DNA of 47,811 nucleotides from positions 1-47,811 of the forward strand of contig DYLM01000007.1 in assembly GCA_020722095.1 (NCBI GenBank). The letters are read 5' to 3'. The notes under the pieces are model-generated. The model saw only the letters and a list, made by a program, of their open reading frames with translations. It did not search any database and had not been told where the DNA came from. Made by a program: the position numbers and the translations under genes. Position 1 is the stretch's first letter; each line of letters opens with the position of its first letter. Positions 14,625 through 18,643 of this stretch are shown here, one piece after another. The stretch is from Chloroherpeton thalassium (GTDB lineage Bacteria > Bacteroidota > Ignavibacteria > Kapaibacteriales > UBA2268).

Positions 14625-15460
14625 AATACTCAATAATTGGTTTTGGGCAAGTAGGCAAAAATTTAGCTTTAAAATTAGCAAGCAAAGAACTGCTGCAAAA
14701 TGTTTTTGTTCGTAATTTAACCCTTGCCCAGAACCAAGCAATTGGAATCGATTTTGACGCTAATTTCCTTACCGATGATTTAGGCAAAATACTAAATTCT
14801 GATATTATCATCATTGCTATAAGCGATAATCAAATCAAAAACTTTGCATTAGAACTTTCAAAATTTCATAAAGATAATGCTGCTCAAAAATCTTCAACTC
14901 GTTTAATTTTTCACACATCTGGTTTGCAAAATGCAGATATTTTAGATAGTCTAATTTATCTAAATTTTTCGATTTTTGCCGCTCATCCAATTCAGACATT
15001 TTTTTTTAATAGTCAAAATTTATTAAATAACATTTATTGGGGAATAGATTCGGGTAATACAAATCCAGAATTGATTAAAGATATAATTGCGGAATTAGAT
15101 GGAAAGCCATATTTTTTAGATGAAAATGCAAAAAATAACCGAGCCTTGTATCATTTGATGTGTGTGGCAACTTCCAATTTTTCTGTAGCAACAATGGAAT
15201 TTGCTAAAATGTTAGCCCAAGAGATTGATATATCTGATAAAATAATTTTGAGCAAATTATTAGAACAAACAACTCAAAATATAATTGCGAATATTAATTC
15301 AGATACAATGCCTTTAACTGGTCCATTTGCCCGAAATGATTATGAGGCGATTGAAAAATATTCAGATAGCTTAAAATGCAATCAAAATTTATTAGATATT
15401 TTTGAAAATTATAAACAAGCAATTACTTTGATAATGGAAAGTAAAATTCAATCAAAATAA
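14621..15460 (+). CDS. Rossmann-fold DUF2520 protein
   Basis: This 279-residue protein begins with a dinucleotide-binding motif, YSIIGFGQVGKNLALKLA (GxGxxG at residues 7-12). An NAD(P)-binding domain follows up to ~120, then a helical DUF2520 domain (ALYHLMCVATSNFSVATMEF). The motif GPFARNDYEAIEKY near residue 225 is typical of the family, as is AAHPIQTF around residue 120. DUF2520 proteins resemble ketopantoate and pyrroline-carboxylate reductases. Their substrate is not established, and in many Bacteroidota they sit near lipid or tRNA genes. It overlaps cysS by ATGA. Its 3' end overlaps the convergent orphan antitoxin gene by 13 bases. Confidence 0.88.
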   Translation: MKYSIIGFGQVGKNLALKLASKELLQNVFVRNLTLAQNQAIGIDFDANFLTDDLGKILNSDIIIIAISDNQIKNFALELSKFHKDNAAQKSSTRLIFHTSGLQNADILDSLIYLNFSIFAAHPIQTFFFNSQNLLNNIYWGIDSGNTNPELIKDIIAELDGKPYFLDENAKNNRALYHLMCVATSNFSVATMEFAKMLAQEIDISDKIILSKLLEQTTQNIIANINSDTMPLTGPFARNDYEAIEKYSDSLKCNQNLLDIFENYKQAITLIMESKIQSK

Positions 15461-15672
15461 TTATTTCTTCCCCAGGATTTCTCTCTTAAAATGTCAATGT
15501 CAATTTCATAATTGTTCCATAAACCTGATAGTTCTAATAGAATTGAAGAACTGTTTTTGCTTTTTGGAGATTCGTTTGAATCGATAATTTTTATAAAATC
15601 ATATTTTGCCAATAAATCACTAATAAATGACTTATTTTTTTCATCAGTAAATTCAATTAATAATGTGCTCAT
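15448..15672 (-). CDS. Orphan antitoxin-like small protein
   Basis: This 74-residue protein has a short acidic N-terminal half (LLIEFTDEKNKSFISDLLAK) and a tail with LSGLW...IDILREKSWGR. The W.....LREK.WGR tail is common in small antitoxins that precede PIN or RelE toxins in cyanobacteria and Bacteroidota. No toxin follows; its 3' end overlaps the end of the convergent DUF2520 gene, so the partner may have been lost. The start is preceded by repeat copy D, like the other modules of this array. Confidence 0.6.
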   Translation of the reverse strand: MSTLLIEFTDEKNKSFISDLLAKYDFIKIIDSNESPKSKNSSSILLELSGLWNNYEIDIDILREKSWGRNNYFD

Positions 15673-15675
15673 TTA

Positions 15676-15740
15676 TTTCACTCTTCAATTTTTCCTTTTC
15701 AGACTAATATTTTTCAATTTATTTTGTGGTGGTGTGGCTG
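15676..15740. repeat. Module-header repeat, copy D
   Basis: This ~65 bp repeat ends in TTTATTTTGTGGTGGTGTGG on the plus strand. It is almost identical to 16311-16374 and similar to 17021-17079 and 17791-17850. In the minus-strand sense it directly precedes the antitoxin-like gene and supplies its leader. Confidence 0.92.
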
Positions 15741-15778
15741 ATACAACAACAGAGGATGTAATCTTGTGAATCTCACAT

Positions 15779-16042
15779 TTATAAATACAATCCTTTTGCC
15801 AATTTGCCAGTTACTTTGTAATACAAAGTTTCTGGAGAAATATCTAATCCGTTTTTCCAAACAATTGTTCCCAAATCTTTGTCAACAGAAAAATCTTTAA
15901 AAAAGTCAATACTTTCTAATGCTTTGAAAAGTCCATTATATTTAGTATAATTAGAAAAATCAACAACCCCCATAACTCCATCTGTGAAGGTAATATTAAT
16001 TAAATAAGAATTAATATATTCGGCATTAATTATTTCAACCAT
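15779..16042 (-). CDS. DUF2442 protein, module 1
   Basis: This 87-residue protein fits DUF2442: a first strand followed by FTDGVMGVVDF, a central FKALESIDFFKDFSVD, and the hallmark GTIVWKNGLDISPETLYY. DUF2442 proteins are commonly encoded after DUF4160 proteins in what look like toxin-antitoxin pairs. Which partner is toxic is not settled. The gene lies 8 bases after the DUF4160 gene with a GAGGTGA ribosome-binding site. A second, diverged pair occurs at 17267-17783. Confidence 0.88.
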   Translation of the reverse strand: MVEIINAEYINSYLINITFTDGVMGVVDFSNYTKYNGLFKALESIDFFKDFSVDKDLGTIVWKNGLDISPETLYYKVTGKLAKGLYL

Positions 16043-16050
16043 AAATCACC

Positions 16051-16308
16051 TCAAAGCGGTTCTATACTATGAAGAATACCGCCATTTCGAGCATTATTCC
16101 AATTATCAGTTAATTCTGAAGTATGCTGAGATGCCCATTCCATCACTAAACCTAATGCCTTTGGTGGAAGGTTGCCGTTAATTACTGCAAGATCGCTAAT
16201 TCTAATGAGTGATTTATATTGGTTATATTTAGCATGAAAATGAGGTGGATTATGATCATCATAATACATCAATATCTGAATTCCATAAAACATTGAGATA
16301 ATTGGCAT
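16051..16308 (-). CDS. DUF4160 protein, module 1
   Basis: This 85-residue protein matches DUF4160: MPIISMFYGIQILMYYDDHNPPHFHAKY, the conserved PHFHA with neighbouring acidic residues, then ISDLAVINGNLPPKALGLVMEWA. I place the start at the MPIIS methionine, as in the family and the second copy. An upstream ATG would add eight residues encoded by the repeat. Together with DUF2442 it forms a putative toxin-antitoxin pair. The second copy (17514-17783) is only moderately similar, so this is not a recent duplication. Confidence 0.9.
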   Translation of the reverse strand: MPIISMFYGIQILMYYDDHNPPHFHAKYNQYKSLIRISDLAVINGNLPPKALGLVMEWASQHTSELTDNWNNARNGGILHSIEPL

Positions 16309-16310
16309 TC

Positions 16311-16374
16311 TTTCACTCTTCAATTTTTCCATTCAGACGAATATTTTTCAATTTATTTTGTGGTGGTGTGGCTG
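16311..16374. repeat. Module-header repeat, copy C
   Basis: This is the second copy of the header repeat, directly upstream (minus sense) of DUF4160 module 1. It continues without a break into the RHS-core remnant at 16353-16502. Confidence 0.92.
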
Positions 16375-16502
16375 TTCCCTGCATATTGCCACGGGGTCAG
16401 CCTAAGATACTTCTCCCACAGCGGATCCACACTCGTAAATCTCTCCCGACAAGTCGGGGTTTCCGCTTCGCTCCAACCAGTCATATAATCGTATTTTCGC
16501 AC
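16353..16502 (-). pseudogene. RHS/YD-repeat core 3'-end remnant, copy 1
   Basis: The minus strand encodes VRKYDYM, then RFTSVDPLWEKYLRLTPWQY and AGNSHTTTK before a stop. RHS-family proteins have a core ending like RFxSxDPLxEKYPxLxPYxYAxNNP, so this is a fragment of an RHS core. A CCCGACTTGTCGGG palindrome has been inserted in its middle. It joins the end of the upstream RelE-type toxin gene region to the next module. No RHS gene body remains in the window. A near copy is at 17058-17258. Confidence 0.65.
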
Positions 16503-16547
16503 TTCGCTTGCACTGAGCGAAGTCGAAGAGTGCTGTTCAAGTTGATT

Positions 16548-16814
16548 TTAATAAACTTCATCGTGAGTACCAATATTAAGAAGTATAATGATTTCACTCT
16601 TAATTTCAAAAATAATTCTATAGTAATAATTAATTGATGCAGAATAACAGCAACTTAAACTGCCTTTTAATTTGTGCGTTTTTAAAATTGGATTAAAGGG
16701 ATCAACTTCAATTTGAGTAATTCCAGACTTAAAAAACTCTATCAATTCTGGGTTTTTCTTTAAGAACTTTTCAGATGCCTTAATAAACTTTGGTGTCCAA
16801 ATAAGTTTTCTCAT
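16548..16814 (-). CDS. RelE/YafQ-type mRNA interferase toxin
   Basis: This 88-residue protein looks like a RelE-superfamily ribosome-dependent mRNA nuclease, closest in pattern to the YafQ or RelE/StbE group. Evidence is the KLIWTPKFIKASEKFLKK N-terminus, HKLKGSL, the central NYYYRIIFEI strand and the C-terminal IGTHDEVY, with the usual His and Tyr near the end. It overlaps the upstream antitoxin gene by four bases (ATGA). Size and order are those of a complete type II module. Confidence 0.88.
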   Translation of the reverse strand: MRKLIWTPKFIKASEKFLKKNPELIEFFKSGITQIEVDPFNPILKTHKLKGSLSCCYSASINYYYRIIFEIKSEIIILLNIGTHDEVY

Positions 16815-17014
16815 ATTCCTAAAGATTTGAATAAATCACCAGAATTTCCAATTGTATAGTTTTCTTCTAAGTACTCTTGACGAGATTGCAAAGTCTCAGT
16901 AATCAAACTTTGCCTACTTTTTTCTGCAAATCTTTTATTTGCAATATCAAGAAAAATTTTTTGATTTTCTAATGGTAAATTATCAACAAAATCCAATAAT
17001 TCAGAAAATTCCAT
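16811..17014 (-). CDS. Antitoxin of the RelE/YafQ-type module
   Basis: This 67-residue helical protein (MEFSELLDFVDNLPLENQKI then DIANKRFAEKSRQSL) is the antitoxin of the RelE-type pair by position and four-base overlap. I start it at ATG 17014, which has a GAGAGAGG box, rather than at an upstream ATG (17110). Extending to that ATG would add residues encoded by the header repeat. The C-terminal tail (EENYTIGNSGDLFKSLGI) is a likely toxin-wrapping segment. The family name is unclear. Confidence 0.78.
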   Translation of the reverse strand: MEFSELLDFVDNLPLENQKIFLDIANKRFAEKSRQSLITETLQSRQEYLEENYTIGNSGDLFKSLGI

Positions 17015-17020
17015 TTTAAC

Positions 17021-17079
17021 CTCTCTCATTTTTCCATTCAGACGAATTTTTTTGAATTTATTTTGTGGTGGTGTGGCTG
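17021..17079. repeat. Module-header repeat, copy B
   Basis: The third copy of the header repeat ends within 7 bases of the antitoxin start codon and contributes its ribosome-binding site (CTCTCTC on the plus strand). It runs into the second RHS-core remnant. Confidence 0.9.
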
Positions 17080-17258
17080 TTCCCTGCATATTGCCACGGT
17101 GCCAGCCCAAGATACTTCTCCCACAGCGGATCTATGCTCGTAAACCACTCCCGACAAGTCGGGATTTCCACTTCGTTCCAACTCGTCATATAGTCATATT
17201 TTCGTACACCGTGGTCGGCTAAGTTGCTTTCCAAATATAGTTTCATTGTTAATAGCAC
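17058..17258 (-). pseudogene. RHS/YD-repeat core 3'-end remnant, copy 2
   Basis: A 66-codon frame ends YDYMTSWNEVEIPTCREWFT, then SIDPLWEKYLGLAPWQYAGN and SHTTTK. It is about as long as copy 1 plus an upstream stretch LYLESNLADHG. The DPLWEKY...YAGN pattern marks the end of an RHS core. It starts with ATG but has no RHS body or toxin tip, so I treat it as a degenerate fragment. Confidence 0.65.
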
Positions 17259-17266
17259 AATATAAA

Positions 17267-17509
17267 TTAATGTACAGGTTCGCTATCAATATATAATGTG
17301 TCTGGGCATATATCCTGACCGTTGGGCCACGATATTGTTCCATTCTCTACCTTTACTTTTTTAAAATAATGCAAATCTTTTAACTCTTTAAATATTCCAA
17401 AGTCTAACAATGGAGTAAAATTATATATTCTGTGTTCTCCATTCTTAAATTCAAGGAATACTCTATAATCTTCTATAGGTTCTACTTTTATTACTCTGGG
17501 ATTCATCAT
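17267..17509 (-). CDS. DUF2442 protein, module 2
   Basis: This 80-residue DUF2442 protein (EFKNGEHRIYNFTPLLDF, FKELKDLHYFKKVKV, then GTISWPNGQDICPDTLY) is the second member of the upstream DUF4160 pair. The gap to that gene is 4 bases. Residues around the WPNGxDICPDTLY signature are closer to the family consensus than in module 1. The role within the pair is not known. Confidence 0.9.
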   Translation of the reverse strand: MMNPRVIKVEPIEDYRVFLEFKNGEHRIYNFTPLLDFGIFKELKDLHYFKKVKVENGTISWPNGQDICPDTLYIDSEPVH

Positions 17510-17513
17510 AGCC

Positions 17514-17783
17514 TCATTTTAAGGGATCAATACTATAAATATTTTGACCTGAAACAGCAAGAGACCAATTAGCGATTAATTCGTCACGATGCAATTCAAT
17601 CCATGCTTGTACTAAGCGGAGTTTGTTGTTTGGCAATTTGCCATCAAGAACATCGCCACTTTGAATATCAAAAACCGCCTCAAGATCTTGATAGTTTACA
17701 TGAATATGTGGTTTTTTATGTTGTTTATTATCATTATAATACATTGAGACTATAATTCCATAAAACATTGAGATAATTGGCAT
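17514..17783 (-). CDS. DUF4160 protein, module 2
   Basis: This 89-residue DUF4160 protein starts MPIISMFYGIIVSMYYNDN, followed by KKPHIHVNYQDLEAVFDIQ and GDVLDGKLPNNKLRLVQAW. The PHIHV segment corresponds to PHFHA in module 1. The start codon is preceded by the GAGAGAGGGAAAG sequence that ends header repeat A. It pairs with the following DUF2442 gene. Confidence 0.92.
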   Translation of the reverse strand: MPIISMFYGIIVSMYYNDNKQHKKPHIHVNYQDLEAVFDIQSGDVLDGKLPNNKLRLVQAWIELHRDELIANWSLAVSGQNIYSIDPLK

Positions 17784-17790
17784 TCTTTCC

Positions 17791-17850
17791 CTCTCTCATT
17801 TTTCCTTTTCAGACGAATTTTTTTGAATTTATTTTGTGGTGGTGTGGCTG
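17791..17850. repeat. Module-header repeat, copy A
   Basis: The fourth header repeat lies between the coiled-coil nuclease-like gene and DUF4160 module 2. Just upstream (minus sense), a short stretch can be read DLESNLNSHTTTK. It shares LESNL and HTTTK with RHS remnant 2, so this copy looks like an RHS remnant with an internal deletion. Confidence 0.9.
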
Positions 17851-17884
17851 TTCAAATTGCTTTCTAAGTCCTGTTCCTTGCCGA

Positions 17885-18499
17885 TTACCATAGCTTCGGT
17901 TGGAATGATTCTCGATTGATTATTCTGGCACTTTCATTGGTGGCTTTGATTACAAATAATCCATTTCTTGCAGCATATCTGTGTGCTTCTCCTTCAACAG
18001 AAATATATGCTACTGCCCCAATAATCTCATTTGTTGAAAAAACAGGAAAAACTTCTTTGAATACATTTAATTTTGAAAGAAATCTTTTAACATCATCAAT
18101 ACTTAATGTTGTTTTTACTTCTACTGCCACGACCTGCTGTCCATTTTTTGCAATTATATCAATTTCGTATTGTTTATTTTGTAAGCTGCCTTTTGCCCGT
18201 AGAAAAGTTTGATGCACATCAATTCCTTTTTCATTTAATATGTTGATTAAGGTTCCATCAACCAAAGCCTCGACAAACTTTCCCCAACGTGTTTCAATTT
18301 CACTCAACTTTTTCATCAGTTTTTGGAATTCTTTTCTTGTTTCTAACGAAGATTTAGCAAGAATTTCTTTAGTTTCTTGCAGTTTTTTATCTGATTCTTG
18401 AAATTGCTGTCGTGTTTCTTGAAACTTCTTATCTGTTTCTTGAAACATTAACCATACTTTCTCGAAATCAAGTTTTTCTGTATTTCTTTCTGTTGCCAT
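17885..18499 (-). CDS. Coiled-coil PD-(D/E)XK nuclease-like protein (DUF3782-like)
   Basis: This 204-residue protein has an N-terminal coiled coil (about 15-70) made of repeated FQETxKK/FQESDKK units. A nuclease-like domain follows, with Asp114 in YEIDIIAKNG and Glu127-Val-Lys129 in VVAVEVKTTL. This is the PD-(D/E)XK arrangement of DUF3782-type proteins, which are common in cyanobacteria and FCB genomes. They often have no known partner. It is preceded by a normal AT-rich promoter region rather than a header repeat and is the outermost gene of the array. DNA-cleavage activity is inference. Confidence 0.8.
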   Translation of the reverse strand: MATERNTEKLDFEKVWLMFQETDKKFQETRQQFQESDKKLQETKEILAKSSLETRKEFQKLMKKLSEIETRWGKFVEALVDGTLINILNEKGIDVHQTFLRAKGSLQNKQYEIDIIAKNGQQVVAVEVKTTLSIDDVKRFLSKLNVFKEVFPVFSTNEIIGAVAYISVEGEAHRYAARNGLFVIKATNESARIINRESFQPKLW

Positions 18500-18643
18500 T
18501 TTATACTCAAATATACTTTGATATTTACGTAAACACTAAATTACAAAAATTATTGTAAAGATATGGAAACTTATTGAAGCGTATTGATACTCGTAAATTG
18601 CAATATCTAATAATTCTTATAGAATTTTGTTTATAAAAAAAAA

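Follow-up and report, generated by a model that had tools for sequence, protein, structure and literature searches.

In the window, i.e. the whole stretch of 47,811 nucleotides that was analysed, ordinary type II toxin-antitoxin (TA) modules are located behind the ends of RHS core fragments, as a preliminary description of this DNA had proposed, and at least four further genera of the family showed the same. This arrangement, its recurrence throughout the family, a leader common to the TA units, sharp boundaries between RHS sequence and leader and differences in module content between sister species were all observed directly. The explanation considered reasonably probable here is that the slot of tip and immunity gene in RHS orphan arrays is held by TA pairs, which have a promoter-like leader and are moved by homologous recombination between core fragments. 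No description of TA modules in RHS arrays of this kind was found in the full-text literature searched, where subscription papers mostly fall outside; the arrangement is real and family-wide and, as far as this literature shows, apparently undescribed, yet built from known parts.

Modules, RHS fragments and repeat copies of the window

A 68-nt repeat is present in four copies of about 65-68 bp, designated D (15673..15740), C (16307..16374), B (17012..17079) and A (17783..17850), which are 76-94% alike and span 15673-17850. All four are read on the minus strand, which also carries the module genes, the RHS fragments and the DUF3782-like gene of the window. The preliminary description of four small modules, each headed by one repeat that supplies the ribosome-binding site, was confirmed: the next start codon is located 0-10 bases from each copy, and each contributes a purine-rich ribosome-binding site (GAGAGAGG, GAAGAG). 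Within the repeat lies the leader, here in its version from this genome and a sister species (CAAAATAAATTGAAAAATATTCGTC), at 16309-16360 in copy C, 17015-17065 in copy B and 17784-17836 in copy A; in copy D, where the upstream RHS core is absent, it reads CAAAATAA-N13-AGTC within 15673-15726. A stretch of 187 nt with 89% identity is common to copies B and C, both of which, as previously noted, continue on their upstream side into one and the same RHS core end (SIDPLWEKYLGLAPWQYAGNSHTTTK). The repeat tract also enters the two DUF4160 genes of the window by about 35 nt, past which point these genes diverge, and this fits recombination tracts rather than a fixed cut.

Behind copy A, a DUF4160 (DhiT-like) toxin gene (17514..17783; PF13711, E=1e-25; NF048015, 99.7 bits against a cut-off of 100) is followed by a DUF2442 (DhiA-like) antitoxin gene (17267..17509; PF10387, 7e-16). 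The same toxin-first order is seen in module C, with a DhiT-like gene at 16051..16308 (PF13711, E=4e-22; NF048015 DhiT, 7.6e-23, 80.9 bits) and a DhiA-like gene at 15779..16042 (PF10387, E=9e-13; NF048016 DhiA, 2.5e-8, under its cut-off). Because the NCBIfam equivalog cut-offs were missed, by the DhiA-like genes with scores of 16.9 and 34.5 against 200, both pairs are named DhiTA-like. Module B has the RelBE/YafQ layout: an antitoxin gene of 67 aa (16811..17014), assigned by position only, overlaps by four bases the start of a downstream YafQ/YoeB/RelE-type toxin gene (16548..16814) with scores at or just under the curated cut-offs (PF15738, 9e-6; PF06769, 1e-5; TIGR02385 RelE/StbE, 2e-6, at its cut-off). 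The orphan antitoxin-like gene of module D (74 aa, 15448..15672) was labelled from its size and position only; its 3' end is cut against the adjoining oxidoreductase gene, and the partner toxin is absent. The earlier module labels thus stood with Pfam and NCBIfam for the DUF4160/DUF2442 pairs and the RelE-type toxin, while the module D gene and the module B antitoxin matched no Pfam or NCBIfam family and keep labels of size and position. Based on these assignments, the modules of the window are predicted to be type II TA units with toxin and antitoxin activity.

RHS core-end fragments stand in tandem and in one orientation, two long ones and one short one in the window and more on contigs C116 and C140. 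The fragment ahead of module C (16356..16538), part of the 187-nt repeat of copies B and C, gave 77% in tblastn against the genome consensus core end, and the fragment ahead of module B (17061..17258), ending in FTSIDPLWEKYLGLAPWQYAGNSHTTTK and a stop, was found by open reading frame and core-end searches. At copy A only a short remnant is left (VIGKEQDLESNLNSHTTTK and a stop; 17829..17888), in which the core middle is deleted; its deletion junction recurs in a copy beside nuoE on contig C140. Upstream, a gene at 17885..18499 encodes a DUF3782-like protein with a nuclease-like domain (PF12644, 5e-5; PF01870, 7e-6), a recurrent companion of the arrays that is also present in those of genomes G012, G031 and G032. 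In the window the RHS fragments stop at SHTTTK, TA operons come next, and no in-frame polymorphic toxin tip with immunity gene is present; such in-frame tips and immunity genes are found behind RHS fragments in the relatives G010, G027 and G031.

Distribution of the repeat and of its leader

The genome to which the window (contig C126) belongs, G000, was assembled to 2.46 Mb in 222 contigs and is 94.7% complete. It holds 11-12 copies of the repeat, confined to three array contigs (the window, C116 and C140) and the end of C56, and a 24-bp repeat core with up to three mismatches gave 8 matches, where the reversed pattern gave 0; this restricted occurrence indicates that the repeat is not due to chance. 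TA units headed by the repeat were found at three or more further chromosomal sites of G000 and at five sites of the sister-species genome G011. The preliminary description had raised the possibility of other small modules behind further copies, and all 16 copies with a readable downstream gene in the two genomes indeed precede a TA unit, never unrelated genes; one unreadable copy on C140 enters an assembly gap, and C56 ends within the repeat. The families behind the repeat include DUF4160/DUF2442, YafQ/RelBE-type, HicBA, DUF433-DUF5615, MNT-HEPN and others. On C116 it heads DUF433-DUF5615, DUF4160-DUF2442 and nucleotidyltransferase-HEPN units, with VapBC-like and YoeB-type units further on, each behind additional core fragments; C140 carries a broken VapBC, a ParE/RelE-type unit and two HicBA units. 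RHS core-end fragments coincide with the repeat sites on C116 and C140, and fragments of other RHS lineages in G000 (C57, C73, C149) likewise precede TA units. TA clusters without RHS were also seen on contig C33. An intact RHS parent gene was not found in G000, as far as assembled: no match scored over the TIGR03696 cut-off and the largest open frame was 132 aa. Longer RHS frames whose core end is of this kind exist in G010 and G012 of the same genus.

The leader consists of two blocks, TAAAATAW and, about 14 bases further on, CGTC, TGTC, AGTC or CGTT, with the octamer 41-63 bp ahead of the start codon in most cases. Of 35 array TA units from several genera, a set on which the motif had itself been partly defined and in which the window and the arrays of C116, C140 and G011 are not represented, 26 had a leader score of at least 12.5; among other genes it was reached by 6 of 244 (p=2e-23), and among shuffled sequences by 0.9%. 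Among 25 TA units at loci unused for motif finding, 15 reached a score of 11, compared to 16 of 244 controls (p=4e-10), and only 4 reached the strict threshold of 12.5 (p=0.008). The leader precedes 15 of 17 array copies of DUF4160 versus 5 of 33 non-array copies, one of the latter being actually near an RHS fragment. It is weak or missing in some arrays (G022, G051 and parts of G027). In G031 it heads DUF4160, ParDE-like, HicBA, VapBC-like and DUF3782 units with unrelated upstream sequences, and both there and in G000/G011 leaders that head differing TA families resemble one another over the greater part of their length; those of G027 have only two short blocks in common, at fixed spacing. 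The short pattern TAAAATAAT-N4..14-TTCGTC, searched in nine genomes, was specific in G031 only, where 8 of 9 matches fell within its two TA arrays; a single fixed pattern misses the other genera because they carry variants. No structured RNA was found in the repeat by Rfam search up to E=0.1.

In nearly all of 31 matched units, the end of RHS homology falls -23 to +14 bp from the leader (one at -33), and these end points lie at differing places in the RHS sequence. Homology restarts mostly 0-55 bp past the TA stop codon, and no 3' boundary motif was visible in the sequences after these stop codons. Based on these boundaries, the variable unit extends from the leader to the stop codon and is framed by RHS fragments. 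The leader also occurs without RHS, as in the G011 copies C15a, C142 and C196, which have no recognisable upstream RHS core end. The earlier view of the repeat as RHS-core debris was therefore abandoned: copies lacking RHS exist, RHS homology stops at the repeat, and across genera the leader is found again behind RHS fragments that end at varying positions, which assigns the repeat to the TA unit. On this sequence evidence, header and RHS core end are two distinct parts.

Arrays in related genomes and exchange between sites

The arrays of G010, G027, G020, G002 and G031 contain cassettes of RHS core, tip and immunity gene that alternate with TA units. DUF4160-DUF2442 is the commonest of these units, and VapBC, MazEF, RelBE, HicBA, BrnTA and an MqsA-like pair also occur. 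The RHS orientation is kept in 24 of 25 array TA units of the relatives, as counted manually from maps (binomial 8e-7). In a scan of 54 family genomes, 12 of 69 DUF4160 genes outside G000 and G011 had an RHS core end at a distance of up to 3 kb, where 0.59 would be expected from the area covered, and all 15 DUF4160 genes near an RHS core end agreed with it in strand.

Comparison of G000 and G011, which was based on stretches free of N-gaps, showed array sites in common with differing contents. On contig C142, G011 has module A, with an 87% identical counterpart of its DUF2442 gene in the same relative place, and the next core fragment, followed by YefM-YoeB and proC; in the window the order is modules B, C, D and proC. 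The counterpart of this YoeB in G000 is 95% identical and located on C116, at the TonB-receptor site. Order is reversed between C140 of G000, which carries VapBC then RelBE, and C85 of G011, which carries RelBE then VapC. For many G000 modules G011 lacks a counterpart, and searches of G012 and G013 did not yield any. The array flanks that were examined, at nuoE, gpsA, der, purB, the TonB receptor gene, uvrB and FKBP, are free of arrays in the congeners G010, G012 and G013, with the exception of an RHS scrap and a DUF3782 gene beside a proC-like gene in G012. The main weakness is that nearly all genomes are fragmented metagenome assemblies in which repeats invite mis-joins, and N-gaps are present in or at the arrays of C140 and C116. 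Contig C142 of G011 joins proC to nuoE rather than FKBP, which could be either an array-mediated rearrangement or a mis-join.

Origin of the arrays and relation to known systems

TA-rich integron cassette arrays resemble the present ones in having many TA pairs in one orientation with repeats between them, and the sharp left boundary at the leader, the varied TA families behind one sequence and the constancy of the leader in G000/G011 and in G031 would all agree with a site-specific recombination site and an integron-like array of TA cassettes. The repeats here, however, are RHS coding fragments plus leader. Neither strand forms a stable hairpin (about -1 kcal/mol, no better than shuffles), no matching motif is found at the 3' ends of the units, and the two blocks of the G027 leaders at fixed spacing are more promoter-like. 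Only two tyrosine recombinases were found genome-wide (C74 and C14), none of them on the array contigs, some of whose array ends lie at contig breaks. An integron-like origin is consequently very unlikely, and the attC reading as such was dismissed for the missing hairpin and the array contigs without recombinase. Somewhat less improbable, and still doubtful, is a simple clustering of RHS debris and TA modules in variable islands, with the header produced by local tandem duplication. Variable regions frequently contain TA modules, and likewise RHS remnants, and the TA clusters on C33 are free of RHS; yet clustering leaves the strand agreement, the end of RHS homology at the leader and the recurrence in several genera without a cause, and unrelated genes behind one leader, which precedes at least six unrelated TA families, are not explained by duplication.

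The leader is more probably a promoter than a recombination site; this reading is favoured by the fixed spacing, the fixed distance to the start codon, the missing hairpin and the lack of a nearby recombinase. As a sigma-70 promoter it was rejected, since its matches were no better than shuffled expectation. The leader might also be the regulatory element of a dedicated regulon, in which an alternative sigma factor or regulator switches the array TA units jointly and selection keeps the motif. Two blocks at a fixed spacing of 14-15 bases, a constant distance to the start codon and the rarity of the motif before other genes and non-array DUF4160 genes speak for such a regulon. The leaders of G000/G011 and of G031, however, are alike over most of their length, which needs copying besides selection, and no sigma factor or regulator for the leader was found, so that a regulon as the whole explanation appears rather unlikely; it is compatible with the TA-unit exchange favoured here as its promoter part.

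The nearest described systems are the orphan rhs-CT/rhsI and cdiA-CT/cdiI arrays (Poole et al. 2011, PMC3150448), which likewise consist of tandem fragments of toxin-gene ends with toxin/antidote pairs in one orientation and show exchange of modules between strains. Here the cargo is an ordinary type II TA operon that brings a leader and a start codon of its own, in place of an RHS tip and immunity gene, and the parent RHS gene is absent from G000 as assembled. In polymorphic toxin systems, a constant gene body likewise has standalone toxin/antidote cassettes recombining at its 3' end (Zhang et al. 2012, PMC3482391), and orphan pairs of RHS and CDI systems are displaced, and loaded anew, through recombination at the conserved core (PMC3150448, PMC3482391). 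A classical RelE domain as polymorphic-toxin tip is reported only once in that survey (PMC3482391), while the RelE, HicA, PIN, DhiT and MazF units found here are free operons and not fused tips. Orphan RHS toxin/immunity pairs can act as type II TA systems, according to the portion of Starsta et al. 2020 (PMC7043789) consulted, which does not describe ordinary TA operons in an RHS array; by such TA-like work inside the cell the slot becomes functionally interchangeable. The DUF4160/DUF2442 pair dhiTA of Dickeya dadantii is an experimentally supported TA system with toxin activity and autoregulation (PMC8198452). It has the toxin-first order and domain pair of the window copies, which score just or well under the NCBIfam equivalog cut-offs, and its description makes no mention of rhs.

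Taken with these precedents, ordinary chromosomal TA pairs have probably taken over the toxin-tip/immunity slots of an RHS orphan array, the fragments of which would then be a platform into which antidote-paired toxins are swapped. Each TA unit would be compact, with a promoter-like leader and two genes, set between RHS core fragments in RHS orientation. As the units lie between near-identical RHS fragments, and in this lineage also behind a near-identical leader, homologous recombination could delete, swap or copy them, both inside one array and from one array site to another. Their loss would be slowed by TA addiction, so that the arrays could outlast the RHS gene. In the simplest extension, any toxin-antidote pair between two core fragments would become a cassette of the same system. 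Homologous recombination as mover, addiction as cause of persistence and the first arrival of each TA pair are what we infer from the arrays; recombination of this kind accounts for the shuffling and not for unrelated TA pairs first landing behind the same leader.

RHS orphan arrays are usually studied separately from chromosomal TA modules, and the occupation of the same slots together with a common leader links both evolutionarily. The arrays offer a route other than integrons to the gathering and shuffling of many TA modules, as well as a testable case for the persistence of orphan arrays once the RHS gene is lost. More tentatively, RHS orphan arrays might be a general platform for the exchange of all kinds of toxin-antidote pairs in this Kapabacteria-like family, in which a dedicated leader, either a promoter or a capture site, marks the TA units. 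If this is true, secreted-toxin tips and intracellular TA modules would belong to one cassette system.

A DUF3782-like companion gene and a second leader

A gene for a DUF3782-like protein, with a C-terminal nuclease-like domain and coiled-coil repeats, was found repeatedly adjoining the RHS/TA arrays of several genera (window 17885-18499; loci L067 3831-4430, L157 6482-7075, L158 and L218). In the family relative G031, this gene and the TA units have the same leader. A second common leader, TCTTTACAATAWTTTTTGTAATTTARTGTTTAYGTAAATRTCAAA, is situated upstream of the DUF3782-like gene in the window (18500-18560), and upstream of a YefM-YoeB unit in the sister-species genome (L103 2141-2200).

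Inserts and assembly gaps within the arrays

Short inserts, CTTCGACTTCGCTCAGTGCAAG and the palindrome TCCCGACTTGTCGGGA, are carried by some copies of the RHS fragments and missing from others (window 16440-16540; L030 6430-6460 and 10310-10340). They resemble small palindromic repeats inserted in frame. N-gaps were located within or at arrays at L031 1982-2081 and 3578-3677 and at L030 6019-6118; one of these has the same 55 bp on either side, so that the flanking sequences probably overlap and no real gap exists there.

Array flanks and further TA clusters

In L103 (contig C142 of the sister genome G011) proC is linked to nuoE via an array, while the counterparts in the window's own genome, G000, are arranged as proC-array-FKBP and nuoE-array-gpsA. 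The proC-nuoE link represents either an array-mediated rearrangement or a mis-join. Additional clusters of DUF4160-DUF2442, RelBE and MazEF units are present in G000 at L152 (C73) and L151 (C33), some of them without RHS fragments.
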